Origin: Niameybacter massiliensis
GTDB lineage: Bacteria > Bacillota > Clostridia > Lachnospirales > Cellulosilyticaceae
Reading direction: 5' to 3'
Assembly (NCBI RefSeq): GCF_001282685.1
Contig: NZ_LN875035.1
Location: 199,278 to 263,277, forward strand
Length of the DNA stretch: 64,000 bases
Within the stretch, counting starts at the first letter, position 1, and the number at the start of each line of letters is the position of its first letter. The translations under genes and the position numbers were made by a program. Under the pieces are notes generated by a model. That model searched no databases. It saw nothing but the letters and a program-made list of their open reading frames with translations, and was not told the DNA's origin. This document shows positions 47,362-61,825 of the stretch, piece by piece.

Positions 47362-47396
47362 AACATTTCCCCCTTGTTCTCTCTTTTTATAGTTTC

Positions 47397-47461
47397 ATTA
47401 TAAGAAATAAACCTACTACTTTTGAAGGGATATTTTTTACTTGAAGAGGTAATATTTTTAC
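47397..47461 (-). promoter_or_regulatory. Promoter region of the ABC/GH3 operon with a tandem direct repeat
   Basis: On the minus strand a TATAAT (47402-47397) lacks a good -35. Immediately upstream two adjacent similar units occupy 47441-47461 and 47422-47440 (minus strand GTAAAAA...CTTCAA, 21 and 19 bases). The weak -35 plus helical repeats fit activation by the YesN-type regulator at 39440-40177 (inference). Confidence 0.45.
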
Positions 47462-47485
47462 ATTTTTATTCGCCCCAAAAGATAA

Positions 47486-47523
47486 TCCACTACTAAAGAG
47501 GCATTTCCCCTTTTGGTAGTGGA
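47486..47523 (-). terminator. Intrinsic terminator of the 13-gene TRAP/acid-sugar operon
   Basis: TCCACTAC (47486-47493) pairs with GTAGTGGA (47516-47523), extended inward by AAAGAGG/CCCCTTTT with wobbles. It lies just after the kinase stop codon. Confidence 0.7.
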
Positions 47524-47535
47524 CTCATCGTTTTA

Positions 47536-48942
47536 TTAGGTATAATCATGAAGCACTTCTACAATTTCTTTTAGTGTATCTTGTTCACCTACATTACCTG
47601 GAAAAATAATATAGGCCATTTGAGGAAACTTACTTTCTTCTCCTGTTCGCCATATAGGAATTCCTTTAGCTATTTGCCCGAGTACCCATGCTTTTTGAAT
47701 ATGTAAGCCCTTGGTAGCTACATCACTTGAAGTAATACCTCCTTTGGCAATAATATACTTAGGTCGTACTTGTAATTGCTCCACAATACTTGTCAAAGCA
47801 TTTGATATATTGGTTGAAGTCTTTAGAATCTCATCTTTATTCGTTGTATACGTTTTAATCAATTGGCGACTTGTATATAAAAGTACATCTCTTCCCGATT
47901 GAAGGGCTGCTTCCGTTAATTCCACAATCCTGTGGATTTCTTGTTTGGTCTTTTCTCTATTATAGATCACATTGACATCAAATTCTACCGTTGTAAAAGG
48001 TAGACCACAATTTTTAAGTGCCTCTAACTGCTGAGATGTTTTCTTTACATGAGAACCTACTACCACAATCCCACCATTCGTGTTGTTCCCTTCAACAATA
48101 TCTGCTTTTTTTAATAAAGGTTGGTCTTCTATACCACCTATAACCTTTACAAAAGAGGCAGCTGTTCTAAACATAAAATGTTTGCCCTGTTTGATTGCAT
48201 CAATAAGTGCAATCACAAAAATTTTAATATCTAATAAACTGGTTGCATTTACAAAGATTTTATTAAAATTATTGACGCCCATTAATTTTCTAGTCAATGC
48301 CTGATAATCTAAGTGATGCAATTCTTCTAAGGAAAAACTAACCATTTCACTTTTTTGATAACGCCCTTGTGTTTTTTCTTCACACCATTCCAAAAGGTTA
48401 GAAGCACAAAAACCAAAACTTTTATCTTTTGCAAACTCTGTTTCACCTACTGGAATAAGGCTATCCTTAACTTCTACATAATGAATATTGTCAATAGTCT
48501 TCCTACCACCTTCTTCAAAAAAAGGAATAATGATTTCTCCATCATAGCGATAAGGCACATGTGCTTCAATACTCTCCTTTAATACTTCTGTTTCTAAAGG
48601 ATAGTGTCCACGGAGTGTAGAGTCACCACGACTAATGACCAGAAAATCTTTATTTTCTATTTGGGCACACATTGCAAGGTCTGTTCCTATTGTATGATGT
48701 ATCTTGGTTGTTTCCTCTACAGAAAAACTACGTGAATTGGTCAAAATAAAAGACATACTTGCATCACTTTTAAAACATTCCAGTAAAGTCTCTCTTTGCC
48801 AATTTGTAAATACGTTCACACGATTCACTGTCTGTGTACCCGTAGGATCATCATCGAGCACAATGATTTTATGTTTCAATTGCTTTAAGCGTTCTTCTAA
48901 AGTTTGATTAATTTGCTTTTCTTGCCAAAGACTAAGAACCAT
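47536..48942 (-). CDS. Four-carbon acid-sugar kinase family protein (OtnK/DUF1537-like)
   Basis: This 468-residue cytoplasmic protein has an N-terminal substrate domain opening with the family signature VLDDDPTGTQTV (29-40). SRGDSTLRGHY follows near 107, and a C-terminal nucleotide-binding domain has the GGITSSDVATKGL loop near 402. The family phosphorylates 3-oxo- or D-tetronate-type four-carbon acids and related sugar acids with ATP. It is the last gene of the long TRAP operon and would trap the final acid intermediate as a phosphate. The substrate is not determined by sequence. Confidence 0.85.
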   Translation of the reverse strand: MVLSLWQEKQINQTLEERLKQLKHKIIVLDDDPTGTQTVNRVNVFTNWQRETLLECFKSDASMSFILTNSRSFSVEETTKIHHTIGTDLAMCAQIENKDFLVISRGDSTLRGHYPLETEVLKESIEAHVPYRYDGEIIIPFFEEGGRKTIDNIHYVEVKDSLIPVGETEFAKDKSFGFCASNLLEWCEEKTQGRYQKSEMVSFSLEELHHLDYQALTRKLMGVNNFNKIFVNATSLLDIKIFVIALIDAIKQGKHFMFRTAASFVKVIGGIEDQPLLKKADIVEGNNTNGGIVVVGSHVKKTSQQLEALKNCGLPFTTVEFDVNVIYNREKTKQEIHRIVELTEAALQSGRDVLLYTSRQLIKTYTTNKDEILKTSTNISNALTSIVEQLQVRPKYIIAKGGITSSDVATKGLHIQKAWVLGQIAKGIPIWRTGEESKFPQMAYIIFPGNVGEQDTLKEIVEVLHDYT

Positions 48943-48962
48943 ATAGACCTCCTATTATTTTT

Positions 48963-48999
48963 GAAAAGGAAATGTTAGCTTAGCCAACATCCCCTTTTC
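48963..48999 (-). promoter_or_regulatory. Intercistronic hairpin between the TRAP and kinase genes
   Basis: GAAAAGG (48963-48969) pairs with CCTTTTC (48993-48999), and inside it ATGTT/AACAT with a small GC cap forms a long interrupted stem. There is little T-run. It may process or attenuate the message before the last gene. Confidence 0.45.
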
Positions 49000-49002
49000 T
49001 TC

Positions 49003-50292
49003 TTATAAATTCATTCCAAGTATCCTTGGTAAAATAAGTGAAATCTCTGGTATAAAGGTAACAATCATTAAAACAATAATCATGACCACTATCCAAGGGA
49101 AGATTTTCCTCACTAAGTTATCAAAGGTAATATCTCCAACTTGGCATGCCATAAATAAGTTGGCACCTAATGGTGGTGTAATAAAACCTATCGCTAAGTT
49201 CATGATCATAATAATCCCAAAGTGAATGGGGTTCACACCTAATACCGTTACAACAGGTAAAAGAATTGGTGTTAAAATAATAATGGCTGCATTGGTTTCC
49301 ATAAACGTTCCTACCATAAGTAAAAGTAGATTGATAAGGAGTAAAATAAGTATCTTACTATTTGTTATGGATAAAATAACTTCTGCAATTTGTTCAGGAA
49401 CTTGTGTAATTGTCAAAATCCTTCCAAAACCTGTAGAGATACCAATAATCACCAATACCGTTCCACACATTAAACATGAACGATAAGCAATGCCCATTAA
49501 GTCTTTGAACTGTACTTCTTTATAGATAAAGATACTTACAATAATTGCATAAGCACTTGCAATAGCAGCTGCTTCTGTTGGTGTAAAAATACCACCATAG
49601 ATTCCCCCTAAAATAATAACAGGAATCAATAATCCAGGGATTGCCTCTCCTATAATGTGCATTGCTTCTTTGAAAGTATACTTTGTCTGTTCACCTTTAT
49701 AACCTTTTTTCTTAGAATAAAATATGGTATAGATAATAAGTACTAGACCAATGAGTAAGCCTGGCAAAATCCCTGCCATAAATAAACTAGATATAGATGC
49801 ACCAGATGCAACAGCATAGACTACCATACATACACTAGGTGGGATAATAACCCCTACTGTACCAGCTGTAGCAACTAAGGCACTTGAAAATCCTCTATCA
49901 TAATTGGCCTTTACCATAGTGGGTATCATTACAATACCTATAGCTGCAACGGCAGCAGATCCTGTACCAGATATTGCTCCAAAAAATAAACAAGTAATGA
50001 TGGTAACAATTCCCAAACCGCCTGTAAATCTTCCTACAAAAATCTTAGTTACATTTAATAAGCGTTTAGAAATACCACCTTGCCCCATAATCTCGCCTGC
50101 AAAAGTAAATAAAGGTACCGCCATTAATGGAAAAGAATTTAAGCCTTGCATCATAGACTGGGTAAAAGTTTCCATACTAATAGGTTGCTCCATCAAAATG
50201 CAAACTAAAGAACTTAGTCCCAAACTGATTCCTATAGGAATAGACATTAACAAAAACAAAATCAGTGCGCCAAATAATATTCCTGCTGTCAT
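49003..50292 (-). CDS. dctM: TRAP transporter large permease, DctM type
   Basis: This 429-residue protein has about 11-12 hydrophobic segments. Typical DctM stretches include FPLMAVPLFTFAGEIMGQGGI (about 54-74), GAISGTGSAAVAAIG (about 105-119), GVIIPPSVCMVVYA and the C-terminal IGFITPPLGANLFMA (about 374-388). It is the ion-coupled channel of a TRAP importer for organic or sugar acids. It starts 3 bases after the small permease gene. The whole DctPQM set lies inside an acid-sugar catabolic operon. Confidence 0.93.
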   Translation of the reverse strand: MTAGILFGALILFLLMSIPIGISLGLSSLVCILMEQPISMETFTQSMMQGLNSFPLMAVPLFTFAGEIMGQGGISKRLLNVTKIFVGRFTGGLGIVTIITCLFFGAISGTGSAAVAAIGIVMIPTMVKANYDRGFSSALVATAGTVGVIIPPSVCMVVYAVASGASISSLFMAGILPGLLIGLVLIIYTIFYSKKKGYKGEQTKYTFKEAMHIIGEAIPGLLIPVIILGGIYGGIFTPTEAAAIASAYAIIVSIFIYKEVQFKDLMGIAYRSCLMCGTVLVIIGISTGFGRILTITQVPEQIAEVILSITNSKILILLLINLLLLMVGTFMETNAAIIILTPILLPVVTVLGVNPIHFGIIMIMNLAIGFITPPLGANLFMACQVGDITFDNLVRKIFPWIVVMIIVLMIVTFIPEISLILPRILGMNL

Positions 50293-50295
50293 ATT

Positions 50296-50904
50296 CTATT
50301 CCCCCAATCCAAGCTTAGATTCAGCTTCAATTTTCATCTTATCAACTTCTTTAAGCTGCTGAGGCATAAAACAAATATGATTATTCTTATAGTATTTGCC
50401 ATCATAGTTCTCAAACACTACTAAACTATCTTTCCAATGGGTTATTTTCCAACCGATTACTTGTATCCCTCTTATGAGCATTAAGGCAAATCCTATTAAA
50501 CCAGACAAGTACAGTAAGTTAGAGCTAATAGGTAATGTAACCAGCTTATCTTCAAAACGAGCTGTTTGCAGACAAAGTAGTAGAACTGCTTTAAATGCAT
50601 AAAAACTAAAAAATAGGAACAATAAATCACATACTACTAAGAGTATTTTTTGAATACTTTCTGGAAACCTTTCTCTTAGAAAACCGATTCTAACATGTCG
50701 ATTATTTCTTGTAAGATAACCAAAAGTCACAAACGAAAGCCAGACAAACATAATTCTTGCTATTTCCTCTCCCCAACTTAAACCCGTTTTAAATACAAAA
50801 CGCAGAATAACTTGAATAACAATAAGGAAAAACATGATGCTAAACAAACTCACCATGGCCAGTGGTTCAAAATTGACATCTAACCAGCTTATGCATTTTT
50901 TCAT
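50296..50904 (-). CDS. dctQ: TRAP transporter small permease, DctQ type
   Basis: This 202-residue protein has four membrane segments. The conserved loop LSWGEEIARIMFVWLSFVTFGYLTRNNRHVRIGFLRERFP (about 38-77) contains the W-EE-R and H-R pattern of DctQ. The C-terminal 45 residues form a polar extension longer than usual. It pairs with DctM, and its gene lies 22 bases after dctP. Confidence 0.9.
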   Translation of the reverse strand: MKKCISWLDVNFEPLAMVSLFSIMFFLIVIQVILRFVFKTGLSWGEEIARIMFVWLSFVTFGYLTRNNRHVRIGFLRERFPESIQKILLVVCDLLFLFFSFYAFKAVLLLCLQTARFEDKLVTLPISSNLLYLSGLIGFALMLIRGIQVIGWKITHWKDSLVVFENYDGKYYKNNHICFMPQQLKEVDKMKIEAESKLGLGE

Positions 50905-50926
50905 ATGAACTTCCCCCTATCTTGGC

Positions 50927-51946
50927 CTAGTTTTGGCGTGCCTTTTCTATTTCTTCAAACACACTATTATAGACCTCTTCACCACACATTTTCACAATTT
51001 CATCCTTAATTGCATGATTCATTTTCTCGCCCATTTCTCTTCTCGCATCTTGATCTAACTCATTGATCTCAATACCACTCTCTTCAAGTAACTTGAGTGT
51101 ATCTTGCTCAATTTCAGAAACAAGTTGCCAGTTATAATCAATGGCTTCTTTGGCGGATTCCATAATGATGTCATACTCTTCTTTGGATAAACTTTCTATA
51201 AACTCTGCATTAGCGAACCATAAAAAGTTAGTAAAAATATGCTTAGTTAAAGATAAGTACTTCTGTGCTTCATAGAATTTTTCTAGGTAAAAACTATTAA
51301 TAGCACATTCTTGGCCATCGATAAGTTTTTGTTGTAGTGATGTGAAAAGTTCATTCCAGCTGACACTAGTAGGCGCTGCACCTACTGCACTCCAAGCAGC
51401 AATCTGAAGAGGATTATATCCTCTCATCTTTAATCCTTTTACATCTTTTGCTTCTATAATAGGTCTTTTACTATTGGAAAAATTTCTAAAACCTAATGCC
51501 ATATAACCTATTCCTTTTAAGTTCATACGTTCTAATGACTCCATCATTTCTATACCTGCTGGACCTTCTAAAACACGTTTGGCATGATCTGCATCATCAA
51601 ACATATAGAAGCTCTCCCACATAGAAAATTCTGGAATAGAAGAGACTAGATTACTCGTCGTAGTTGCTGACATCTCCACATCTCCACGCCTAACTTGCTC
51701 ATAAGTATCGATTACACTGCCCATCTGTGCCGCTGGAAAGAGAATCACATCTATTTGGTGATCTGACTTTTCTTCTACTAGCTTTTCAAAATGAATAAAA
51801 GCCTTATGGATAGGTGTTTGAATACCATTATCGTGTGCTATACGTATCTGTTTCACATCTTGTTTAATTTGAGTAGAACATCCACAAAAACATAAAAGAC
51901 ATAGTGTACTTATAATACTAAAAAAATATTTTTTGTACCCTCTCAT
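50927..51946 (-). CDS. dctP: TRAP transporter solute-binding lipoprotein, DctP type
   Basis: This 339-residue protein has a lipoprotein-like signal ending in CFCGC (about residue 23), so it is probably tethered to the membrane. The DctP fold is shown by IRIAHDNGIQTPIHKAFIHFE near 35, GDVEMSATTTSNL near 92 and MRGYNPLQIAAWSAVGAAPTSVSW near 180. The Arg in KGLKMRGY is the carboxylate-binding arginine of the family, so the substrate is probably an acid. It starts the DctPQM set. Confidence 0.92.
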   Translation of the reverse strand: MRGYKKYFFSIISTLCLLCFCGCSTQIKQDVKQIRIAHDNGIQTPIHKAFIHFEKLVEEKSDHQIDVILFPAAQMGSVIDTYEQVRRGDVEMSATTTSNLVSSIPEFSMWESFYMFDDADHAKRVLEGPAGIEMMESLERMNLKGIGYMALGFRNFSNSKRPIIEAKDVKGLKMRGYNPLQIAAWSAVGAAPTSVSWNELFTSLQQKLIDGQECAINSFYLEKFYEAQKYLSLTKHIFTNFLWFANAEFIESLSKEEYDIIMESAKEAIDYNWQLVSEIEQDTLKLLEESGIEINELDQDARREMGEKMNHAIKDEIVKMCGEEVYNSVFEEIEKARQN

Positions 51947-51978
51947 ATGCTACCCCTCTCTACCCACTCTTTTACTTA

Positions 51979-52773
51979 CTATCTCTCTTTATACTGCTCA
52001 TGAAATTGTTGTGCTGTTTGATGTGCAAGCTGAGATAATGCTACACCATCAGCCATGATAACGACATATTGATAGCCTTTTTCATAAAGCACTTTAGCTT
52101 TTTCAAAATTACCTGCCACTGTTCCTAAGAATTTATTAGACTTTGAAACCTTCTCTTCAATGATTTTAATAGTGGCTTGCACATCTGGATGAGAAGGGTC
52201 ACAAAAATGTCCCATTGATGTTGCAAGATCCATAGGACCAATAAAAATACCATCAATCCCTTCAACTTCTAATATAGCGTCTAGATTAGATACTGCTTCT
52301 GGCGTCTCCATCGCAACCATCAACATAATCTCTTGATCTGCATAAGGAAAATATTGATTATTTCCTAAACCATAGCCTTGTGCTCTACAACTTCCGGCTA
52401 CACCTCGAATTCCCTTTGTTGGATAGGTTACAGCTTTAACTGCATCTTCTGCTTCTTGCTTTGTATTCACATAAGGTACAAGTACCCCATGTACGCCAGC
52501 ATCTAATATTTTTTTGATGGCTACAAAATCATTCCAAGGTGCTCTTACAAAAGCTTCTACACCATATCCTTTCATCGCTTGGAGTTGAGAAATAAGTGTC
52601 ATGATATCCCCAGGTCCATGTTCCATATCAATCATTAACCAATCAAAACCAGCTCTTGCCATAATTTCTGCTGTAAAAGGACTTGCCACCTGTAACCAAG
52701 CGCCTGCAGTCTTTTTACCTTCTTTTAATAAAGCCTTTGTTTTATTAGAAAAGTTTTCGCCTAATGGTAACAT
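51979..52773 (-). CDS. HpcH/HpaI family 2-keto-3-deoxy acid aldolase
   Basis: This 264-residue TIM-barrel enzyme shows FDWLMIDMEHGPGD (about 43-56), VRAPWND, HGVLVPYVNTKQEA and METPEAVSNLD (about 151-161; metal-binding Glu). The final block GIFIGPMDLATSMG (about 171-184) supplies the metal-binding Asp. The class II HpaI/RhmA/GarL family cleaves 2-keto-3-deoxy acids to pyruvate plus an aldehyde. No dehydratase that would make such an acid is visible in the operon, which is odd. It lies 14 bases after the Ldh-family gene. Confidence 0.9.
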   Translation of the reverse strand: MLPLGENFSNKTKALLKEGKKTAGAWLQVASPFTAEIMARAGFDWLMIDMEHGPGDIMTLISQLQAMKGYGVEAFVRAPWNDFVAIKKILDAGVHGVLVPYVNTKQEAEDAVKAVTYPTKGIRGVAGSCRAQGYGLGNNQYFPYADQEIMLMVAMETPEAVSNLDAILEVEGIDGIFIGPMDLATSMGHFCDPSHPDVQATIKIIEEKVSKSNKFLGTVAGNFEKAKVLYEKGYQYVVIMADGVALSQLAHQTAQQFHEQYKER

Positions 52774-52787
52774 CTTATTTCCCCCTT

Positions 52788-53864
52788 TTAATTGACTGCA
52801 TCTATTTCTGGCAGTTGACTTTGAATATTGTATTGTTGCTTAAGTGCTATAAGTTCCTCATACGTTGTAATAGGTACAGGAATGCCACCTTCTAGACGTT
52901 CTTGTTCTTTGCGGTATTCTATTTCTCCTGGCATAAACATTTCTTTTGTTTCATCCCACATTGGGGTCGCTTTAATACGTTCGTAGTACTCTGTCATACG
53001 CTGTTTCATCTCATCTTGCCCAATAATAGCATCAATATTGATAGCAATCATAAAATGTCCTGTCAAACTTGGTTCATCAGGATTAGCATACATACTCTTC
53101 ATTTGATGAGAGAACACGCCACCTGTAATTACACCACATAAAATATCAATGACTTCTGCAAGCCCAAGTCCCTTATGATCTGCTGCTGGAAGTAAGAAGC
53201 CTTTATGTGCTTTTGCTGGGTCATCCGTTGGTCTACCTTCACTATCGGTTCCCCAATCCATTGGAATCTTTTCTTTTTTCTTCATTGCTAAAGTAAACTT
53301 ACCACCTGCTACCTTAGAGAATGAAATATCTAAACAAAATGGAAAGGCATTATACGTTGGTACTGCTATGGCTAGTGGATTATTACCGACCACTGGCTTA
53401 CTTGCTCCTGGTGCGACAATAAGAGGAAGTACATTGGTCATTGCAAAACCTATCATGCCTTTTTCAGCAGCCAGCCTTGCATAAAGTGCACCTGCTCCAA
53501 AGTGATTACTATTTACAACCCCTACCATCCCTACGTTATATGTCTTCGCAAGTTCAATGGCTCTATCCATAGCTTTTTGTGCTACAATAAAACCTGCTCC
53601 ACCATCTCCATCCATGACTTCAAGGCCCTTATCTCCTTTTATTGTCTTAATGTTTGGTGATACATTGATTGCGCCATTCAACATACGATTAAAATAAGCC
53701 GGTACTCTTAATACACCATGTGAATCAATTCCCCATAAATTAGTTTTAACTAATGCTTGTGCATGAAATCTAGCATCTTCTTGTGGCATACCCGTTGTCT
53801 CAAATAATTCTGTAACAAATTGCTCTAAATTTTTTGCTGAAACTGTTACTGTATTTTTTGACAT
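52788..53864 (-). CDS. Ldh/YiaK/AllD-family NAD(P)-dependent dehydrogenase
   Basis: This 358-residue protein belongs to the malate/L-lactate/ureidoglycolate dehydrogenase superfamily, which lacks a Rossmann fold. Signatures are NLWGIDSHGVLRVPAYFNRM (about 42-61, with the catalytic His), VGVVNSNHFGAGALYA (about 111-126) and MTNVLPLIVAPGASKPVVGNNPLA (about 141-164). It reduces 2-keto acids such as 2,3-diketogulonate or oxidises 2-hydroxy acids. Between the aldolase and LacI genes, it is probably a redox step on the acid intermediate. Confidence 0.9.
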   Translation of the reverse strand: MSKNTVTVSAKNLEQFVTELFETTGMPQEDARFHAQALVKTNLWGIDSHGVLRVPAYFNRMLNGAINVSPNIKTIKGDKGLEVMDGDGGAGFIVAQKAMDRAIELAKTYNVGMVGVVNSNHFGAGALYARLAAEKGMIGFAMTNVLPLIVAPGASKPVVGNNPLAIAVPTYNAFPFCLDISFSKVAGGKFTLAMKKKEKIPMDWGTDSEGRPTDDPAKAHKGFLLPAADHKGLGLAEVIDILCGVITGGVFSHQMKSMYANPDEPSLTGHFMIAINIDAIIGQDEMKQRMTEYYERIKATPMWDETKEMFMPGEIEYRKEQERLEGGIPVPITTYEELIALKQQYNIQSQLPEIDAVN

Positions 53865-53890
53865 ACCTATTCCCCCTAATGTTTTAGACG

Positions 53891-54898
53891 TTAAGTCGTT
53901 GTTCTTTCAACAATTTTACATTGTAAAAGCCTTAAACCGCCTTCTACAGGTAAACCTTGATCAATCCTATAGAAATATTCATAAATCTCATCCACCATTT
54001 CTTCTAATGGCTGATGAACAGATGTAATCTTATAACTTTCCCATGTACACATATCAATATCGTCAAATCCTATAATAGCAACATCCTCAGGCACTCTAAG
54101 CTTTAGGTCATGCCTAACGGCATCTGTTGCCCCAATTGCAATCATATCATTGCCACAAAAAACTGCATTAGGAGGGATTTCTTTTTCAAAGAGCTTTTTC
54201 ATTGCCTCTCTTCCATATTCATATAAATAGTCTCCCTCTTCAATATAGCAGTTCTCTATGCCTCTTTCTTGTAAACGATCTAAAAAGCCTTTCTTACGAA
54301 TGGTACCTGTTGTTGTCGTTCTTCCTCCAATAAAAGCAAATTGAGTATACTTTCGATCTAGAAAATAATTTGCTACCATTCTTCCTGCTTCTGCACTATC
54401 ACTACATACCGAGCACATCCGTTTATCTGTTGTATATTGATTGAAAAATACCGTAGGTACATTCACCTTTAAATACTCCTCAGCAAAATCTTTAGGTAAA
54501 GCTGGCGCTGCAATCACAACGCCATCTACCTGATATTCTAAAACTCGGTTAATAATTTCATTTGCATCTTCCTCGCATCGCATTTGAAAAAATAGCACCT
54601 GCTTATTGTTCTCTTGTAACCTTTGTGTCAAATAGGAAAATACACCTGTATAAAATCTATTATTAATATCTGACAACACAACAGCAATAATATTAGATTT
54701 TCTAGAAGATAGGCTGCTAGCTATTTTATTAGGTGTATATCCTAATACTTTAGCAGCCTCTATTACTTTAATTCTTGTATCCTCTTTAACCGTCATCTCT
54801 CCACTAAATACACGTGATACTGTTGCTTGTGATACGTGCGCAAGCTTTGCAACTTCTTTTGAAGTAATGCGGTTATCTTCACTTTTCTTGCGTGCCAT
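53891..54898 (-). CDS. LacI-family transcriptional regulator of the TRAP operon
   Basis: This 335-residue regulator has the LacI HTH at about 10-55 (TSKEVAKLAHVSQATVSRVFSG, then the hinge helix YTPNKIASSLSSR). A periplasmic-binding-protein-like effector domain follows (about 65-332). It lies in the middle of the operon rather than at its front. Three LacI-type operators centred on ACGT lie upstream of the first gene (61591-61809), and I infer that this protein binds them. Effector binding residues cannot be mapped by eye. The GGAGG ribosome site is 7 bases upstream. Confidence 0.92.
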   Translation of the reverse strand: MARKKSEDNRITSKEVAKLAHVSQATVSRVFSGEMTVKEDTRIKVIEAAKVLGYTPNKIASSLSSRKSNIIAVVLSDINNRFYTGVFSYLTQRLQENNKQVLFFQMRCEEDANEIINRVLEYQVDGVVIAAPALPKDFAEEYLKVNVPTVFFNQYTTDKRMCSVCSDSAEAGRMVANYFLDRKYTQFAFIGGRTTTTGTIRKKGFLDRLQERGIENCYIEEGDYLYEYGREAMKKLFEKEIPPNAVFCGNDMIAIGATDAVRHDLKLRVPEDVAIIGFDDIDMCTWESYKITSVHQPLEEMVDEIYEYFYRIDQGLPVEGGLRLLQCKIVERTTT

Positions 54899-54915
54899 TC
54901 ATATTCCTCCAACTT

Positions 54916-56352
54916 TTAAGCTTGTAATACCTCTAAACCACATTCATTAGCTAAAGCTATTACTTGATCTACATAATCTCCATATACAATTGCAAAGTGA
55001 TGTCCTACATATTTTTGACATTGATGGAAACGCTCTGCATCTGCTACTGTATAGCGTACAGCATGTTTACATTCTGGTGTAAGATAATCATCACATCCGT
55101 TGATTGTTCCCTTAGCAACCATAATTTTCTTCATATCTGGGCTTAGATTTACCAAAGTTAATGTTTCTCCTATATCATTAGCAAAATCATAACGCATTGT
55201 AGTTCCCCAGTTATTCATCGTAAAGGATACTAATTCAATAGGTAAGCAGGCCTCACCGTATCCCTTCATCTTAGAACAAGCTACATCATGTAGTGTTCTA
55301 CATTGATTGGTCTTACGATCTAATACCATTGTATTGCCCATATAAGGTGCTTTTTTAGATAGGTTCATTAAAATAGTCATGGATAAGATAGAGCCTACAT
55401 CTCCTGCACAAGAAGAAGCAATTCCTTCATCTTTGAAAATAGAATGTGCAAGACAGAAAGTAAGCTTACGCTTATTAAGCTCTCTTGTTGCACATACTTC
55501 AAAGCATGGCATTGTAAAGGCATTACAATCAAAATGTTCCATCATTTTCTTAATGGTTATATAATACTCTGTGTCATTTTGTACATATTCAACTGGCATA
55601 TGCACACCTTTTGCAGTACTTACAATTTGCTCTGCTAATGCTTTAGCTTCTTGCTTCTCATCTTCTGTTAATTCATCTAACCATTTAAATACATCTTCAG
55701 AGTTAACATGTGCAAAACGAATACCAAATTTATCTGTAATATCACCTAATTGTATGTAAGAACTTTGGCATCCAAAAGTTAATAAAGCACTCTTTAGTGG
55801 GAAGAACACTTTTGTTGTTTCTAGGGCTTTCTTTGTACGTAAAATCTCAAAGGTACGATTCACATCATCAAAATCTAAGAAAGCATAGGCTGGATGACCA
55901 ATAGCAAGAAGATGTGCAGTCATATCAACATGATCACATTTTGATATGGCAGATTTATTAGGTGTATGACCAATAGGTTTCTTTGTACGTTTTGCAAGTT
56001 CTACTGCAAAATATGAAGAAATACGAAGACCTCTTACAAGATAAAAATCTGTTTGAGCATCATCTTTGATTGCTTTTTGAATCTCTGATTCTTTAAGTGC
56101 AAAGTCTTCATTCCATACTACAATTTCTGGCTCCAATAAATTAACTTGTGTAAGATCTAGCTCTGTTGCTAGCTCCTGTTTAAAAATCTCAAATTCTTTT
56201 TGAGCAACTTCCATATCTTTTTCTGTTGTAAGGTCATAGCCTTCTCCATAACGACAAGGTCCCATATAGGCATGAATGTGATACATTGTAAATAAAATTG
56301 GTTTTACGTTTAATTTCACATTTAAAGTACTCATTGGATTTAAATTTGACAT
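54916..56352 (-). CDS. L-fucose/L-arabinose isomerase-fold protein (copy 2)
   Basis: This 478-residue cytoplasmic protein resembles the C-terminal halves of FucI and AraI. FKDEGIASSCAGDVGS (about 308-323) could supply the metal-binding Glu and Asp, and YVGHHFAIVYGD near 451 the His. That places an E/D/H metal triad like FucI's. The protein is shorter than FucI (about 590), and the N-terminal domain is divergent. It is not closely alike the copy at 58394-59827. The role is probably isomerisation of a sugar or acid sugar. Confidence 0.75.
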   Translation of the reverse strand: MSNLNPMSTLNVKLNVKPILFTMYHIHAYMGPCRYGEGYDLTTEKDMEVAQKEFEIFKQELATELDLTQVNLLEPEIVVWNEDFALKESEIQKAIKDDAQTDFYLVRGLRISSYFAVELAKRTKKPIGHTPNKSAISKCDHVDMTAHLLAIGHPAYAFLDFDDVNRTFEILRTKKALETTKVFFPLKSALLTFGCQSSYIQLGDITDKFGIRFAHVNSEDVFKWLDELTEDEKQEAKALAEQIVSTAKGVHMPVEYVQNDTEYYITIKKMMEHFDCNAFTMPCFEVCATRELNKRKLTFCLAHSIFKDEGIASSCAGDVGSILSMTILMNLSKKAPYMGNTMVLDRKTNQCRTLHDVACSKMKGYGEACLPIELVSFTMNNWGTTMRYDFANDIGETLTLVNLSPDMKKIMVAKGTINGCDDYLTPECKHAVRYTVADAERFHQCQKYVGHHFAIVYGDYVDQVIALANECGLEVLQA

Positions 56353-56353
56353 A

Positions 56354-57481
56354 TTATAACCTACCTTCTCTCTTAATCATTTCTTTTAGAACTTTAATTA
56401 AATAATCTATTTCCTCTAAGTTATTATTTTTACTTATGCCAACACGTAAAGTACTCATGACACGCTGCTTATCAAACCCCATCGCTTTTATAACGTGACT
56501 TGTAGCGCCTCTACTACATGCTGCACTACCAGATAATAAAATACCTTTCAATTTCAAATAATGAATCATCTCATCTGTCCTTAAAATGGGAATAGAGAAG
56601 TTTAAAATATAAGGACTACTACCTTCTGGTGAGTTTATTTCCACTTCAGGAATTGTTTCAAGCTGATCTAGAAGATGTTTCTTTAGACCCGTTACATAAT
56701 CTAAATGTTTGTGTAGGTTGATTAACCCCCTATTGGCTGCATACCCAAAAGCAACTGCCAAAGCTACATTTTCAGTACCTGGTCGTAAACTACTTTCTTG
56801 ATAGCCTCCATAAAACAAAGGTTTCAGTTGAATTCCAGGTCTCACATAAAGCGCACCACACCCTTTAGGGCCATAAATCTTGTGTGCACTTACGGAAAGT
56901 AAATCCACTGGTATCTCATATAATTTAAAAGGCATCTTACAAAAACCTTGAACATAATCACAATGAATGATTGTATGAGGATTTCGTTTTTTTACACCTT
57001 CAGTAATAGCTTTAATAGGTAAAACTTCCCCTGTTTCATTATTAATACCCATTACAGATACCAATAGTGTATTGTCATCTACCGCTGCTATCACATCTTC
57101 TACTTGGATTTTACCTAGTCTAGGATCAATGTATACAACCTCATATCCCTCGCTTTGAAGATACTTAAAGACATCTTTTACTGAGGAATGTTCTATAGAT
57201 GTTGTAATAATCTTTTTGCCTTTTCCTGGATTTCCATAGACAGTACCTATAATAGCAAGATTATTACTTTCTGTGCCACCTGATGTAAAGTAAATGGAAG
57301 ATGTTGGTGCACTTATAACCTGTGCAATATAAAATCTTGCTTGTGTAAGACGTTCTAATGCTTCTCCTCCCAGTAGATAAGGCGATGAAGGATTTCCATA
57401 GCACTCTAACATCATTTCCATTGCTTTTTCAGCTACATCCTGATCTACTTTAGTGGTCGCACTATTATCAAAATAAATCAC
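56354..57481 (-). CDS. Cysteine desulfurase-like class V aminotransferase (NifS/IscS family)
   Basis: A 375-residue PLP enzyme with all hallmark positions: IYFDNSATT (2-10), TSGGTESNN (66-74), IEHSS (His 98), HCDYVQ (Asp 175), SAHKIYGPKG (PLP lysine K201) and GGYQESSLRPGTENVA. The loop SGSAACS bears the catalytic Cys 322. It looks catalytically intact. Such enzymes move sulfur from cysteine to IscU, ThiI or similar acceptors. None is encoded here, and the gene is embedded tightly (1 and 4 base gaps) in a sugar-acid operon. A sulfur-related or selenium-related step in the pathway, or simple hitch-hiking, are the alternatives. The start codon is GTG. Confidence 0.88.
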   Translation of the reverse strand: MIYFDNSATTKVDQDVAEKAMEMMLECYGNPSSPYLLGGEALERLTQARFYIAQVISAPTSSIYFTSGGTESNNLAIIGTVYGNPGKGKKIITTSIEHSSVKDVFKYLQSEGYEVVYIDPRLGKIQVEDVIAAVDDNTLLVSVMGINNETGEVLPIKAITEGVKKRNPHTIIHCDYVQGFCKMPFKLYEIPVDLLSVSAHKIYGPKGCGALYVRPGIQLKPLFYGGYQESSLRPGTENVALAVAFGYAANRGLINLHKHLDYVTGLKKHLLDQLETIPEVEINSPEGSSPYILNFSIPILRTDEMIHYLKLKGILLSGSAACSRGATSHVIKAMGFDKQRVMSTLRVGISKNNNLEEIDYLIKVLKEMIKREGRL

Positions 57482-57485
57482 GTCT

Positions 57486-58385
57486 TCACCTCACTCCACA
57501 AATCTTTCCTTTCAAGCTATAAATACAATCTGCTGCACAAATGAATAAGGTTTTTCCATCTTTTCCACCAAAGGTAAAATTGGCTACTTGACCCTCAAAC
57601 ACAATCCGTCCAAGCTTTGTGCCATTTTGATCAAAAACATGGATACCTCCTTGTGCACAACAATACACATTACCTTCATTATCGATTTTCATTCCATCAG
57701 GAAGTCCAAGCCCATCCCCTGTTACTGTAGCCCATAACCGTTTATTTGTAAGTTCTCCCGATGGCATCATATCAAATACCCAAATAGACTTTTCAGGTGA
57801 ATCATTTACAAAAAGCTTTGTTTCATCTAAATTAAAGCATAGGCCATTAGGCGCTGTAAGGGAATCATCTAGTACTGTCAATGTACCTTTTGCATATTTA
57901 TATATGCCTTGGAAATCCAGCTGCTTTTTCCGCTCTACCCCAACTTTTGATGGATTCCTCCCAAAATGAGGGTCTGTAAAATAAATTGTTCCATCCTTTT
58001 TAACAATGATATCATTGGGGCTATTGAGCTCTTTATCCTTATAATGACTGCAAACGATAGTATAGTCTTTGCCTTCCTTATTTCGGCTCACAATACGACT
58101 TGTTGCATGCTCACAAGTTATGAATTGACCTGTTGTTTGGTCATAAGCATTTCCATTGGCCTTAAAACTATAATTGACCCATTCTTTAAGACCATCTTCT
58201 TCTGACCATCTGTACATCTTATTACCAGCTATATCACTAAAAATGAATGATGCATCTATAGCATTCCACACAGGACCTTCTGTAAAGATAAGGCCATCTT
58301 TACTTGATGCTAGAAGATTATAAGCTTGTTCCTTATCTATAATGTCATGCATCCTTAGATCTTCTACCTCTATACGTAGTCCCAT
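57486..58385 (-). CDS. SMP-30/gluconolactonase-family lactonase
   Basis: This 299-residue six-bladed beta-propeller has LIFTEGPVWNA (about 33-43, with the metal Glu), ELNSPNDIIVKKDGTIYFTDP (about 119-139) and TAPNGLCFNLDETKLFVNDS (about 178-197). The conserved DGLGLPDGMKIDNEGNVY holds the catalytic Asp. These enzymes hydrolyse sugar-1,5- or 1,4-lactones produced by dehydrogenases such as the SDR in this operon. The substrate is unknown. It has no signal peptide and is cytoplasmic. Confidence 0.9.
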   Translation of the reverse strand: MGLRIEVEDLRMHDIIDKEQAYNLLASSKDGLIFTEGPVWNAIDASFIFSDIAGNKMYRWSEEDGLKEWVNYSFKANGNAYDQTTGQFITCEHATSRIVSRNKEGKDYTIVCSHYKDKELNSPNDIIVKKDGTIYFTDPHFGRNPSKVGVERKKQLDFQGIYKYAKGTLTVLDDSLTAPNGLCFNLDETKLFVNDSPEKSIWVFDMMPSGELTNKRLWATVTGDGLGLPDGMKIDNEGNVYCCAQGGIHVFDQNGTKLGRIVFEGQVANFTFGGKDGKTLFICAADCIYSLKGKICGVR

Positions 58386-58393
58386 TTTTTCAC

Positions 58394-59827
58394 CTACTCT
58401 TCACCTACTACAGTTACAGGTATATTTAAAATTTGGCATACAGCTTTAATTTCTTTTATACAATCCGTTCCAACACCTACAATATGATTAGAGTCAAAAG
58501 ATTGTACGAAACCATCAAAGTCCATATTGACTTTGATATAAGACATAGGAAGTTGATGTTTTCCTCTAGACTTGGAAAAAGCTTCATGACGTTCTTTTTC
58601 TGGTGTGACCATCTCACCTTTAATCACGTACATTTTGTATGCTCCAGCTGTCCTTGTCAGCCTTGCCAAAGTTACAGGACCAGGCGCTGTAACAAATAGT
58701 GTAATCGCACCTCCTGCTGGTCTATTGGCTTCTTTAAGCTGAATTTTTGATAAGTTTTCTTTTGCATCGTTGCTTCTAGCTGCAAACCAAGCACTATAAG
58801 CACCACAGTTTGGCAAATAAAGTATGCCATCTTCTGGATCTAAATGACTGACATCTGCAAACATAGTTGCCATCCCACCGCTTACCTGTTTTAGAATTTC
58901 CATCGTCAATGCTGCATCTGCATCTGCCTCACAAGCAAACGCTATAGGTTCTTTTATCCCTTCACTATCAAATGGACTAGGTAAAAGTGCTGCTGATAAA
59001 CATTGTGGTGTATAATGATTGGTTAAATCCGGCATACATTTAATGGCTGCAAAGTTAATATGTTTTTCCTCTATAATATCTTTAGTGGCTAAATAGCAAC
59101 GTACTTGGAATTTAAAAGCATCTGGTGTAAATTTCTCTCCATAAGTTATACCGCCTACATGATCACTTAACCATTTCACCATAGCTTCAACTCTGTCATC
59201 TTCTATGTAGTCCGTACGTCTAATAATCTCTAGCTGGTCAATGTGTTCACAGTCTATACCAAATAACTGTTTCCACTGCATTGGATCAAAAGTTCCAGTT
59301 TCAATTCCTAAAGACCTTCCACCAAACAATCCAAACACGCTACCTCTTAGATGCTTAACAGTATGAGCTGCTACAGCCGTCGGCATCAATTTATCATTCA
59401 TAACTTCAATAATCTTAGGATCATCATAATTTTCTTGTATACGTATATGAGGATAACCTATTTGATTTAACGCGCCTCCCGCTCCTAATAAACCAACTGT
59501 TGCATGAGAACCTGTTTCACGATTTGCAAATAGTACTGTTGGTAAATCCATTTGTTGTACAGCTACTGTCGCTAAATTTGGCCAAGTCCAACAAGCAATA
59601 TGCAACACAAAGAGCTCTACTTGTTGCTGCTTGAGTTTAGCAACTTGCTCTTTAATCCCTTCAATGCTACGTGGAAGTTCACTAAAGGTATGTAATTCTA
59701 CTGGTAATTGTTTTAAAACTTTAATAGCCTTTTCATGACGATCTAAGGCTAAATTTTTAAAGACATTGTTCCATTCATGCTCTCTTGGATCCCCAATTGT
59801 AATCATTCCAATAATTGGTTTAGTCAT
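58394..59827 (-). CDS. L-fucose/L-arabinose isomerase-fold protein (copy 1)
   Basis: This 477-residue protein starts at the ATG at 59827, with AGGAG 9 bases upstream; the ATG three codons earlier abuts the ribosome site. N-terminal Rossmann-like segments include VELFVLHIACWTWPNLATV and GSVFGLFGGRSLGIETG. The C-terminal domain has ACEADADAALTMEIL (about 296-310; Glu and Asp), ATMFADVSHLD and SNHIVGVG (His near 452). The spacing suggests the metal triad of the FucI/AraI superfamily. It lies between the SDR and the lactonase genes. Function as an isomerase is likely, but the substrate is unknown. Confidence 0.78.
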   Translation of the reverse strand: MTKPIIGMITIGDPREHEWNNVFKNLALDRHEKAIKVLKQLPVELHTFSELPRSIEGIKEQVAKLKQQQVELFVLHIACWTWPNLATVAVQQMDLPTVLFANRETGSHATVGLLGAGGALNQIGYPHIRIQENYDDPKIIEVMNDKLMPTAVAAHTVKHLRGSVFGLFGGRSLGIETGTFDPMQWKQLFGIDCEHIDQLEIIRRTDYIEDDRVEAMVKWLSDHVGGITYGEKFTPDAFKFQVRCYLATKDIIEEKHINFAAIKCMPDLTNHYTPQCLSAALLPSPFDSEGIKEPIAFACEADADAALTMEILKQVSGGMATMFADVSHLDPEDGILYLPNCGAYSAWFAARSNDAKENLSKIQLKEANRPAGGAITLFVTAPGPVTLARLTRTAGAYKMYVIKGEMVTPEKERHEAFSKSRGKHQLPMSYIKVNMDFDGFVQSFDSNHIVGVGTDCIKEIKAVCQILNIPVTVVGEE

Positions 59828-59839
59828 CTCTTCCATCTC

Positions 59840-60664
59840 CTATGCCTTTATTTGTTGTAATAATTCATAGTCTTGGTCTGTAACAGTTTTATAACCTTTA
59901 GTTGGGAAGGCTTGGAATGATCGCCCGCCATCAATATAAATGGTTTGACCAAAAATAAAGTCAGACTCTTCACAAGATAAAAAGACTGCTAACTTACCAC
60001 ATTCATTAGGTGTACCAATTCTTCCAATAGGTGTCCTTGATAAAATCGTATCCATAAGTTGCGTATCGTTCCCTACTCTTCTCATCAATTCTGTTTCAAT
60101 AGGCCCTGGAGCTAGCGCATTGACTTTAATGCCATAATCATTTAAAGCAATAGCTTGAACTTTCGTAAGTTGTACAATTCCACCCTTACTTACCGTATAT
60201 ACAACTTGAGAATCAAGACCTAAATAAGAGTTTACACTTGCCATATTAACAATAGCGCCACCTTCTCCTTGCTTAATCATTTGACGCGCTGCAAACTGTC
60301 CACCAAAAAACATGCCCTTCAAGTTTACATCCATAATTCGGTCATACTGCTCAGATGTAATATCTATGAAATGGGTTTTATTTGCATCATTAATACCAGC
60401 ATTGGCCATATATATATCTAATCGGCCAAAAGTACTTACGGTTTGATCAATTGTATTTTGTAAAAGTTGTAAATCTGAAACATCTTCATAGATATATTTT
60501 ACTGCCCCTAGCTTACTCAATTCTTGTTCTGCTCTATGACCTGTTTCTTTTTCACGTCCTGTAATAACAACCTTGGCTCCTTCTTTTAAATACTCCTGCG
60601 CAATACCATAACCAATTCCTTTTGTACCGCCAGTCACTATAGCGACTTTATCTTTTAATTTCAT
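59840..60664 (-). CDS. Short-chain dehydrogenase/reductase (sugar or cyclitol dehydrogenase)
   Basis: This 274-residue classical SDR has the cofactor loop TGGTKGIGYG (11-20), NAG (88-90) and the catalytic set S143, Y156 and K160 in YTVSK. The PG motif is at LAPGPIETE (about 179-187). A lactonase follows three genes later, so oxidation of a sugar to its lactone or of a cyclitol to an inosose is the probable first step (inference). It lies downstream of the creatininase-family gene behind a hairpin. Confidence 0.92.
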   Translation of the reverse strand: MKLKDKVAIVTGGTKGIGYGIAQEYLKEGAKVVITGREKETGHRAEQELSKLGAVKYIYEDVSDLQLLQNTIDQTVSTFGRLDIYMANAGINDANKTHFIDITSEQYDRIMDVNLKGMFFGGQFAARQMIKQGEGGAIVNMASVNSYLGLDSQVVYTVSKGGIVQLTKVQAIALNDYGIKVNALAPGPIETELMRRVGNDTQLMDTILSRTPIGRIGTPNECGKLAVFLSCEESDFIFGQTIYIDGGRSFQAFPTKGYKTVTDQDYELLQQIKA

Positions 60665-60685
60665 TATTTCCCCTCCCTATAACAA

Positions 60686-60717
60686 CTTACGCGAAAAGTT
60701 AATGCTCCCCGCGTAAG
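60686..60717 (-). promoter_or_regulatory. Intercistronic hairpin after the first gene of the operon
   Basis: CTTACGCG (60686-60693) pairs with CGCGTAAG (60710-60717), GC-rich for this genome, in the 79-base gap between the creatininase-family gene and the SDR gene. There is no long T-run. It probably sets the ratio of the first gene to the rest, as the hairpins at 19564 and 45999 may do. Confidence 0.55.
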
Positions 60718-60743
60718 CTTGATCCTCTATTTTTCCTTCACTT

Positions 60744-61556
60744 CTATCTATCAACAGGTGGTTTTTCGCCTACTGCATAGCGACTATTAATATCATTAAC
60801 AACCTCTACAATATAGTCCACACATTTATTGACAATAACTTCCCCTTTTTCCTTACATGCAAGTGAAGGTGTTCCAATAACGCCACTCTTAAGTTCTAAA
60901 TACTCTGGTCTTGCAAAAGTTCCTTCAAAGTGGTACATCATACCTGGTTTTGCTGCCATACCTGGCTTGATTTGGAATTTAGCATCGATGAGTGGTGTAC
61001 CACCATCATCAACAGCTTTAGACATATCTACGTATTGTGGGTAAAGATACAATGCTACAGATGTTTCCGCCTCATCTGCATGTACCATAGGTGTTTCCAA
61101 ATCTGTTTGATTATCTCTTAGGAAATCATACCAATGCATAGTAAGTACAAAGTGACCTTCTAGGCCAAGTTTGTTCATTGCGACTAAAGTTGACGCAACT
61201 TGACCATGAGCTGAAAGAATTATGAATTTTTTGTATCCCGCTTGTGATGCTCCTCTTATAATATCACATAATAATGCAGTATGTGTATCATAACCTACAG
61301 GAATCGTCCCTGGCATATACCAATGATGATAAGGATGAGCACCATATGGTAAAGGTGGTAAAAGCATAACTCCTGTACGCCCTGCTACCTTCTCCGCCAA
61401 ACCTAATGCATTAAAATAGTCGCTTCCACATGGGCAATGAGGTCCATGTTGCTCCGTTGCACCAATTGGCAAAATCGCAATATCCGTATTTTTAACATCT
61501 TCTAAGATCTCATCCTTTGTAAGCTCTTGCCACCATAAATGTTTACGTTTCAACAT
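60744..61556 (-). CDS. Creatininase-family metal-dependent amide/ring hydrolase
   Basis: A 270-residue protein starting at the ATG at 61556, 7 bases after GGAGG; the open frame to 61604 begins inside an operator. Metal-site motifs are LPIGATEQHGPH (E35, H37), GSDYFNA (D46), LSAHGQ and HADEAETS (Glu), as in creatininase. Besides creatininase the family holds ring-opening hydrolases such as the 3-dehydro-scyllo-inosose hydrolase (IolN-type) of a Thermotoga inositol pathway. A role in opening a diketo-cyclitol made by the SDR is a reasonable hypothesis. It is the first gene of the operon. Confidence 0.85.
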   Translation of the reverse strand: MLKRKHLWWQELTKDEILEDVKNTDIAILPIGATEQHGPHCPCGSDYFNALGLAEKVAGRTGVMLLPPLPYGAHPYHHWYMPGTIPVGYDTHTALLCDIIRGASQAGYKKFIILSAHGQVASTLVAMNKLGLEGHFVLTMHWYDFLRDNQTDLETPMVHADEAETSVALYLYPQYVDMSKAVDDGGTPLIDAKFQIKPGMAAKPGMMYHFEGTFARPEYLELKSGVIGTPSLACKEKGEVIVNKCVDYIVEVVNDINSRYAVGEKPPVDR

Positions 61557-61590
61557 ATTCATTCCTCCTAATAAGATAAAATTATTTTTT

Positions 61591-61604
61591 GTATACGTAT
61601 TCAT
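61591..61604. promoter_or_regulatory. LacI-type operator O1 (promoter-proximal)
   Basis: GTATACGTATTCAT, a near-palindrome centred on ACGT, lies about 35 bases before the creatininase ATG, in the leader or just after the promoter. It is the first of three copies. Confidence 0.65.
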
Positions 61605-61691
61605 TCTAGATTAAAAAAATAATAAAATTCGATTCAAACTCTTTATAAACGAGTTATTTCATAAATTTTTATCTCTTTAAATTCAACTAAA

Positions 61692-61705
61692 GAATACGTA
61701 TTCAT
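61692..61705. promoter_or_regulatory. LacI-type operator O2
   Basis: GAATACGTATTCAT contains the perfect 12-base palindrome GAATACGTATTC (61692-61703). It is 101 bases from O1, close to ten helical turns. Confidence 0.7.
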
Positions 61706-61809: not shown

Positions 61810-61825
61810 ATAAGATAACAAAAAA

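Follow-up and report, generated by a model that had tools for sequence, protein, structure and literature searches.

Several described systems share parts of their enzyme repertoire with the operon analysed here. The sulfo-ED pathway employs an SDR dehydrogenase (PF13561) together with members of PF08450 and PF03328, and its dehydratase belongs to PF00920 (PMC9594981). In Bacillus subtilis, the desulfurase YrvO passes sulfur to TrmU in tRNA thiolation (PMC6522883). The LtnD-OtnI-OtnK-OtnC pathway combines acid oxidation and isomerisation with a DUF1537-family kinase. The inositol pathway of Thermotoga reportedly uses IolN, a creatininase-family hydrolase. No paper on the gene set of the present operon was found in the open-licence literature.

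The operon lies in the 64,000-nucleotide stretch of Niameybacter massiliensis DNA analysed here (the window). It comprises 13 open reading frames, all on the minus strand, running from 61604 or 61556 down to 47536 with intergenic gaps of 1–79 nt in the ORF listing. An earlier note had described a unidirectional 13-gene operon, and the families it named were recovered: a Pfam scan confirmed nine of ten (Creatininase, SDR, Fucose_iso, SGL/SMP-30, Aminotran_5, LacI, Ldh_2, HpcH_HpaI and SBD_N/NBD_C), NCBIfam models identified DctP and DctM, DctQ was recognised from a weak match and its position, and the second FucI-like protein (FucI_B) from the fold of its AlphaFold2 (AF2) model. The genes, in the order of transcription, are:

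60744–61604, minus strand: creatininase-family hydrolase (PF02633, 183.6 bits; IolN model, 187.5 bits, cut-off 245)
59840–60664, minus strand: SDR dehydrogenase, aldose/polyol 1-dehydrogenase-like (PF13561; glucose-1-dehydrogenase subfamily model, 229.5 bits, cut-off 215)
58394–59836, minus strand: FucI_A, FucI-like isomerase (PF02952/07881/07882; alignments to 1fui and 3a9r)
57486–58385, minus strand: SMP-30/gluconolactonase-family lactonase (PF08450, 174.4 bits)
56354–57481, minus strand: NifS-type (class I) cysteine desulfurase (PF00266, 219.7 bits; TIGR03402, 334.6 bits, below its cut-off of 530.75)
54916–56352, minus strand: FucI_B, Cys-rich protein of predicted AraA/FucI fold (AF2 fold and invariant Cys; no Pfam match)
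53891–54898, minus strand: LacI-family regulator (PF00356/PF13377)
52788–53864, minus strand: Ldh2-family 2-hydroxy/keto-acid dehydrogenase (PF02615, 379.1 bits)
51979–52773, minus strand: HpaI-type aldolase (PF03328; HpaI/GarL models, 231–242 bits, below cut-offs)
50927–51946, minus strand: DctP TRAP solute receptor (TIGR00787, above cut-off; closest solved chain 7bbr, E 1.4e-46)
50296–50904, minus strand: DctQ TRAP small permease (weak YiaM match, 38.7 bits, cut-off 260; placed between DctP and DctM)
49003–50292, minus strand: DctM TRAP large permease (TIGR00786, above cut-off)
47536–48942, minus strand: DUF1537/OtnK-like four-carbon-acid kinase (PF07005 and PF17042)

Like sulfo-ED and non-phosphorylative ED, the operon contained an SDR (PF13561), an SMP-30 lactonase (PF08450) and an HpaI-type aldolase (PF03328), but it lacked an IlvD/EDD protein (PF00920) and had FucI_B and a desulfurase instead. 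Neither PF00920 nor any other known dehydratase family was found among the 13 genes (ten scanned with Pfam, the three TRAP genes with NCBIfam), which bears out the earlier note on this point. The operon also differed from sulfo-ED in that no SQ-specific gene was recognised. Sulfoquinovose was considered as a substrate because FucI_A and FucI_B match SftI and Ldh2 matches sulfolactate dehydrogenase; it was rejected, as the NCBIfam matches were far below cut-off (92.1 bits for FucI_A against the SqvD/SftI model NF048012, cut-off 700) and no SQ-specific gene was present among those recognised. Acid oxidation, isomerisation and a DUF1537-family kinase are shared with the LtnD-OtnI-OtnK-OtnC pathway, whereas Ldh2 and FucI_A stand in the places of LtnD and OtnI and there is no OtnC decarboxylase gene. 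The kinase scored far under the cut-offs of the OtnK and DtnK models (33.3 bits with a cut-off of 350, and 45.9 with a cut-off of 450), and a search for a solved relative returned none at E ≤ 0.001. Searches of plasmids with FucI_B, FucI_A and the creatininase-family protein gave distant or unspecific matches only, and a scan of viral sequences gave no relative.

The region upstream of the operon held the top promoter-like site and LacI-type operators with the palindrome TGAATACGTATTCA:

61717–61745, minus strand: promoter-like site TTGACA-17-TAAAAT (11/12), the top match within 47300–62000, where 45 such sites were counted against a shuffled mean of 60.3
61691–61704, unstranded: LacI-type operator AGAATACGTATTCA
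61795–61808, unstranded: LacI-type operator TGAAAACGTATTCA
61590–61603, unstranded: LacI-type operator TGTATACGTATTCA
61820–61856, minus strand: terminator-like hairpin with 17 pairs, separating the operon from the AraC-type gene upstream of it (61872–62693), one of 7 terminator-like sites in total against a shuffled mean of 6.9

The true start of the creatininase-family gene is probably 61556, because an operator-like palindrome occupies 61590–61603. A strict operator pattern gave six distinct sites across three genomes, every one at the 13-gene locus, while a control pattern gave about one site per genome. These genomes were that of the window, where no strict operator was found elsewhere, and two others in which all 13 genes were found again in a different order. 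In one of these (G858), a perfect copy of TGAATACGTATTCA preceded both half-operons, including the one encoding NifS-FucI_B-DctPQM; in the other (G857), the palindrome was perfect ahead of one half-operon and had one mismatch ahead of the other. The operon is real and looks like a single regulatory unit, and the operators support assignment of the 13 genes to a single LacI-type regulon. The earlier note's claim of one co-regulated catabolic unit agrees with the shared operators confined to this locus in three genomes; its proposed search for the same gene order elsewhere yielded the full gene set in two genomes but not the order.

The two FucI-like proteins differed at the metal site. FucI coordinates Mn2+ through E337, D361 and H528, and the places of E337 and D361 were verified on 1fui. 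FucI_A keeps the ligand positions (E303 and D328 in the alignment to 1fui), and its H451 aligned to a His of 3a9r in a weakly aligned stretch. In the FucI_B of the window, the ligand set was not kept, with A316, N340 and H452 at the positions of E337, D361 and H528. N340 was present in 81 of 81 FucI_B sequences, whereas Glu at position 316 was kept in 74 and absent from the seven of the window's clade, in which both equivalents are altered (Ala and Asn). Judged by alignment, a change at the Mn-ligand position of FucI_B is supported.

FucI_B had no match in Pfam, and its sole NCBIfam match was weak (sulfoquinovose isomerase NF048012, 53.7 bits, cut-off 700). A profile search of PDB sequences found no relative, the single match (E 0.14) being spurious. 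The AF2 model (pLDDT 87.5) matched an arabinose isomerase in Foldseek (E 1.5e-19) and aligned with 1FUI over 425 residues (VIA Z 27.6, rmsd 2.9), and the AraA/FucI fold is confirmed at the level of this predicted structure. Seven Cys were invariant in 81 of 81 sequences, as were H355 and H452. For comparison we used 59 other FucI-like proteins; they came from 56 loci, whose flanks were mostly short. SqvD/SftI and other small FucI-like isomerases share the fold, and three of the Cys (C283, C300 and C315) are common to 48 of the 59 relatives and therefore need not signify an Fe-S site. FucI_B is set apart from them by C33, C276, C287, His355 and the desulfurase partner: the C33 column was a gap in 58 of 59, C276 was Cys in two and C287 in none. 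Asn at the D361 position occurred in 19 of the 59, and 17 of these also had Cys at 428. No desulfurase was seen near at least eight of the 19 whose flanks were read (L026, L027, L029–L032, L065 and L066), and Asn340 and C428 are therefore older than the link to the desulfurase.

In the window, the FucI_B gene lies 1 nt from the desulfurase gene. The desulfurase has the sequence features of a NifS-type class-V PLP enzyme, NifS being its best NCBIfam model though below cut-off; a putative catalytic Cys and an HK motif (PLP Lys) are visible, both kept in at least 92% of 62 FucI_B-linked relatives. A search for FucI_B found 147 relatives, and 80 loci were examined, from Firmicutes, Prevotella, Spirochaetes and Actinobacteria. 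A cysteine desulfurase lay within 3 kb of FucI_B in 71 of the 80 loci (in 68 of them the distance was within 600 nt, and in 69 both genes shared a strand) versus none of 26 control FucI-like loci, taken from the 56; one control locus (L194) had a match of 24% identity and E 1e-5, under the detection threshold. The detection references were themselves desulfurases of FucI_B loci, and five such loci recur among the 80 (presumably L023/L073, L024/L119, L061/L142, L063/L071 and L064/L146, going by contigs of equal length or 100% matches). Beyond 3 kb, one further desulfurase was found in 719 kb. Nine loci had none within 3 kb, two of them (L107 and L138) with long flanks on both sides.

Three desulfurase subfamilies were paired with FucI_B, requiring three Fitch changes on the FucI_B tree; one representative of each subfamily was scored by model, and the other desulfurases were classified by their best BLAST match. 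Class II types were usually accompanied by a sulfur acceptor (SufE or a ~97-aa protein) and the NifS type was not. The EF2568-type desulfurase and the ~97-aa protein shared a locus in 46 of 50 cases, and in the four exceptions the contig ended at the desulfurase gene. SufS occurred with SufE in 15 of 18 (SufE missing in L070, L071 and L110), and the NifS type had neither acceptor in five of five. The model of the ~97-aa protein had no match in the PDB at E ≤ 0.001, and a SufE-like fold was not found at this threshold. NifS-like and FucI_B genes form a distinct, widespread module, and the coupling is strong. This pairing as a module is new in this analysis; the earlier note had missed that the two genes form a separate, widespread unit. 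No paper was found in the open-licence literature that connects cysteine desulfurases with proteins resembling fucose or arabinose isomerases. The adjacency suggests a sugar-handling enzyme that depends on sulfur and is as yet undescribed. The closest analogues are the B. subtilis desulfurase-client pairs (YrvO-TrmU, and a nifS-type gene needed for NAD synthesis), in which a desulfurase is likewise dedicated to one client, but here the recipient would be a protein of sugar-isomerase fold encoded in carbohydrate operons.

We consider the best explanation, at a probability of roughly 40%, to be a LacI-regulated sugar-acid operon resembling non-phosphorylative ED in which FucI_B, fed by the desulfurase, acts as an Fe-S dehydratase before the HpaI aldolase. 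A sugar acid would be imported through the TRAP carrier and pass through oxidation, the lactonase, dehydration and aldol cleavage, with Ldh2, FucI_A and the OtnK-like kinase forming a possible side branch similar in logic to four-carbon acid-sugar pathways. The NifS-type desulfurase would serve not general metabolism but FucI_B, where the sulfur would most likely become an oxygen-sensitive Fe-S cluster. The cluster may act as Lewis acid in the dehydration of a sugar acid, so that FucI_B would fill the slot before the aldolase. We infer the sulfur delivery, the cluster, the dehydration and the substrate; what the results themselves support is that the operon forms one regulon, that the Cys are conserved, that an Mn-ligand position is changed in the alignment and that FucI_B repeatedly pairs with desulfurases of three kinds. 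The earlier suggestion that an enzyme with an isomerase fold has taken on a new mode of action is a live possibility, given the seven Cys, the altered ligand position and the desulfurase partner of FucI_B. More tentatively, FucI_B may represent a desulfurase-dependent AraA/FucI branch in presumed anaerobes, in which a Cys-bound Fe-S cluster or persulfide would have replaced the Mn2+ site, with its own desulfurase (plus the ~97-aa acceptor in one large clade); this branch would dehydrate sugars or sugar acids, a role otherwise filled by dehydratases of the IlvD/EDD or enolase type.

The close match between desulfurase class and acceptor would also suit a sulfur-transfer enzyme, in which the desulfurase, directly or via SufE or the ~97-aa protein, places a persulfide on a FucI_B Cys and the sulfur passes to a sugar or protein, giving a thio-sugar or an activated substrate. 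Dedicated acceptors have a precedent in YrvO and TrmU of B. subtilis (PMC6522883), and no Fe-S scaffold gene was noticed by eye in the modules. Seven invariant Cys would nevertheless appear to exceed the needs of a persulfide relay, and the transporter and FucI_B contexts look catabolic, and we regard this reading as rather doubtful. We find it unlikely that FucI_B has remained an isomerase or epimerase of sugars whose metal site (Fe, Zn or Mn) was partly rebuilt from Cys, His and Asn, the desulfurase merely protecting or maturing it. The fold across 425 residues, the invariant H355 and H452, the Glu retained in 74 of 81 proteins, the Asn also found in 19 of 59 others and a kinase-like gene at one locus argue for it; the double change in the window's clade (7/81) speaks against it, and a plain isomerase leaves the desulfurase unexplained.

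The earlier note had allowed for either an acid sugar or a cyclitol. The closest solved relative of the TRAP receptor, 7bbr, has a ligand that is presumably an acid, which favours a sugar acid. On a cyclitol route, the creatininase-family protein would open a ring by hydrolysis as IolN does, and the SDR would be a dehydrogenase of the inositol type; a hydrolase of this family and a dehydrogenase also occur in the Thermotoga pathway. IolN was indeed the top curated match (187.5 bits), and in L070 the last gene of a PTS-type FucI_B operon encodes a fusion of a creatininase domain with a HAD phosphatase. The score is below the IolN cut-off (NF041098, 245), the other partners differ, no other inositol-pathway model appeared among the matches listed for the remaining operon proteins (for the SDR, the best 25 of 233), and nothing fixes a cyclitol as substrate, which makes this route improbable. 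The genome has seven strong class-V genes, the operon desulfurase among them, and one desulfurase neighbour alone therefore means little; yet the frequency of the pairing (71 of 80 loci, none of the 26 controls), the involvement of three desulfurase types and the shared operator make its chance presence in an ordinary sugar-acid operon scarcely credible.

If FucI_B truly receives sulfur, one of the best-known sugar-isomerase folds would have become a catalyst of another class, and many genes of gut and rumen bacteria annotated as 'fucose isomerase-like' or 'cysteine desulfurase' would be misannotated. With two or three genes and a transporter, the module is small enough to be tested in the search for a new sugar-acid reaction, and the ~97-aa protein is a candidate new family of sulfur acceptors.

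A GH31-type gene was seen within 7 kb of FucI_B in 28 of 80 loci, and in L128 FucI_B occurs together with a gene that by sight resembles a sugar kinase; these neighbours fit an isomerase acting on neutral sugars equally well. An HpaI homologue was noticed in only three of the 80 FucI_B loci (L067, L072 and L090) and was contiguous with FucI_B in L090 alone, where it directly follows the FucI_B gene.

The gene families that the earlier note had assigned to the thirteen genes were borne out by Pfam and NCBIfam; for DctQ the assignment depends on a weak match and on where the gene lies. FucI_B (478 aa), the second of the two FucI-like proteins, encoded 1 nt from the NifS-type cysteine desulfurase gene, gave a weak NCBIfam match (53.7 bits vs. 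a cut-off of 700), and no family matched it in the Pfam scan. The features of the locus are as follows.

About 61556 down to 47536, minus strand: thirteen-gene operon, gaps of 1–79 nt
61745–61717, 5' of the first gene: promoter-like site TTGACA-17-TAAAAT, 11/12, the top match in 47300–62000
Between the promoter-like site and the upstream AraC-type gene: terminator-like hairpin of 17 pairs
61590–61603, 61691–61704 and 61795–61808: LacI-type palindromes, starts 101 and 104 nt apart

Within 47300–62000 neither promoter-like sites (45 vs. 60.3 in shuffled sequence) nor terminator-like sites (7 vs. 6.9) were in excess in total. The LacI-type palindrome, at up to two mismatches, had five matches in the window vs. 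1.54 expected. All thirteen families were present again in two other genomes, G857 (behind locus L067) and G858 (behind L072), as two halves flanking a divergent LacI gene: NifS-FucI_B-DctPQM on one side and Ldh2-SDR-FucI_A-SMP30-HpaI-creatininase-OtnK on the other, FucI_A being the first FucI-like protein. Identity to the operon was merely 33–35% for the HpaI proteins and 40–76% for the other twelve. A perfect palindrome precedes each half-operon in G858; in G857 one half is preceded by a perfect copy and the other by a copy with one mismatch. The strict operator pattern occurred at two sites per genome in three genomes, six of six at the operon locus, and no gene outside that locus carried one in the three genomes scanned; the reversed pattern, used as a control, gave one match per strand per genome. 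Since operators precede both halves and the strict sites all lie at the locus, NifS and FucI_B can be assigned to the pathway's regulon.

The link between FucI_B and the desulfurase was investigated by a profile search of genome contigs from 84,980 species, the query being built from 10 aligned FucI_B sequences. The search yielded 147 relatives, and the best 80 loci were used. A class-V desulfurase was encoded within 3 kb of FucI_B in 71 of these 80 loci (in 69 co-oriented with FucI_B, in 68 no more than 600 nt away), a density of 71 in 426 kb inside 3 kb vs. 1 in 719 kb beyond. None of the 26 loci that encode other FucI-like proteins and served as controls had a desulfurase match at an equal threshold. 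Seven of the nine loci without a desulfurase have a contig end less than 2 kb away on one side (L078, L083, L095, L100, L103, L124 and L140); SufE is present at L103, which has no desulfurase within 3 kb. At L138 the desulfurase lies 3.8 kb from FucI_B, and at L107 none was found within 10 kb on either side, although a gene for a ~97-aa protein is nonetheless present. FucI_B and the desulfurase are very probably functionally coupled (probability about 0.9). Two loci, L074:483-7510 (Eubacterium ramulus) and L075:9974-13268 (an Eggerthellaceae MAG), carry two closely spaced FucI_B-like copies, the second recognized by sight, accompanied by a single desulfurase gene and a single SufE gene.

Desulfurases were typed as NifS-, SufS- or EF2568-like, with one representative of each scored and the rest assigned by best BLAST match, and type required three Fitch changes on the FucI_B tree. 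SufE was encoded at the same locus in 15 of 18 SufS loci, and the ~97-aa protein in 46 of 50 EF2568-type loci, the remaining four having the desulfurase gene at a contig end. All five NifS loci, the window included, had neither. The ~97-aa family, found in 39 of the 80 loci (e.g., L061:12352-12642 and L112:12542-12823), shares the motif SxExC.E.GW, and a Cys is conserved in all 30 sequences of one alignment and in at least 92% of 39 in a second comparison. Two copies scanned had no Pfam match, and a confident model (pLDDT 91.5) matched no PDB structure at E ≤ 0.001. Class II desulfurases are known to require a sulfur acceptor, and this family is probably a new one serving the EF2568-type enzymes. 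A second small protein (~124–150 aa) lies beside SufS/SufE-type modules (L091:4838-5287, L085:7944-8381, L081, L088, L080 and L146); the L091 copy had no Pfam match.

The AF2 model of FucI_B (pLDDT 87.5) had L-arabinose isomerases as its top Foldseek matches and aligned to 1FUI with a Z of 27.6 across 425 residues. The Mn ligands of FucI, which we take to be E337 and D361, are located in the TEND and FADV motifs of 1fui, and FucI_A retains both positions and the His. The D361 position is Asn in all 81 FucI_B sequences. At the E337 position 74 of them have Glu; the other seven, which have Ala, form a single clade of the window and L067–L072. Seven cysteines of FucI_B (33, 276, 283, 287, 300, 315 and 428) are invariant, each in 81 of 81. 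Among 59 other FucI-like proteins, Cys occupies the 283, 300 and 315 positions in 48 each, 428 in 19, 276 in two and 287 in none. At the C33 column 58 of the 59 show a gap, and the alignment therefore leaves the C33 site unplaced. Cys is likewise kept at the position of FucI_B H355, as at 283, 300 and 315, in 46–48 of the 59. The D361 position, which corresponds to residue 340 of FucI_B, is Asn in 19 of the 59, of which 17 also have Cys at 428, and no desulfurase was near the eight Asn340 controls whose flanks were read (L026, L027, L029–L032, L065 and L066). Because Asn340 and C428 occur in controls without a desulfurase, they would have arisen first, predating the desulfurase link, and C276, C287, His355 and perhaps C33 would be the features that accompany it. 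The argument from the Mn site is weaker for this, and that from the extra cysteines sharper.

Among solved chains, the nearest to the window's TRAP receptor was 7bbr, presumably the sugar-acid receptor of Advenella mimigardefordensis. A passage of a review describes import of sugars in acid form by the TRAP system of that species (PMC5812351), and we regard a sugar acid as the favored substrate. The families named in an excerpt on the sulfo-ED pathway include an SDR (PF13561), an SMP-30 lactonase (PF08450), an HpaI aldolase (PF03328) and a dehydratase (PF00920) (PMC9594981). The operon has the first three as well, but PF00920 had no match within it. FucI_B would take this slot as an Fe-S dehydratase, with sulfur supplied by NifS; we give an Fe-S cluster in FucI_B roughly even odds and put dehydratase activity forward tentatively. 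The kinase, Ldh2 and FucI_A may process the second fragment in the fashion of LtnD-OtnI-OtnK, a model for this branch as outlined in part of one source (PMC12540250), although the operon is without OtnC.

Dedicated desulfurase–client pairs have already been described, as an excerpt of one paper indicates (PMC6522883), and sugar-acid operons are likewise already known. We found no report in the open-licence literature searched of such a pairing in an isomerase fold within a sugar-acid operon, and there is a real chance that FucI_B represents a new enzyme class.

Many FucI_B modules have a carrier as their sole company: TRAP in L085, L088 and L091 (nearby in L081), a GAT-type PTS in L068–L071 (Pfam on the L063 copy), a carrier recognized by eye as TTT-like in L086, and ABC-type carriers in further modules. 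A GH31-type gene lies within 7 kb in 28 of the 80, and four loci have one of the GH95 type. Creatininase homologues occur in four of the 80 (L069, L070 and two sister operons); in L070:6768-8333 the gene encodes a fusion of the creatininase and HAD phosphatase domains and is the last of a PTS-type FucI_B operon. In L090 the FucI_B gene is followed by an HpaI-type aldolase gene. At L104:14437-17769, near the FucI_B module, Pfam identified a glycyl radical enzyme together with its activase, and at L138:5020-8380 a similar-looking pair, seen by eye, separates the desulfurase gene from that of FucI_B. Relatives of FucI_A in L188 and L189 are accompanied by RpiB and Dak1 domains, assigned by Pfam, and by TRAP or transketolase-like genes, company that hints at a ketose as the FucI_A product.
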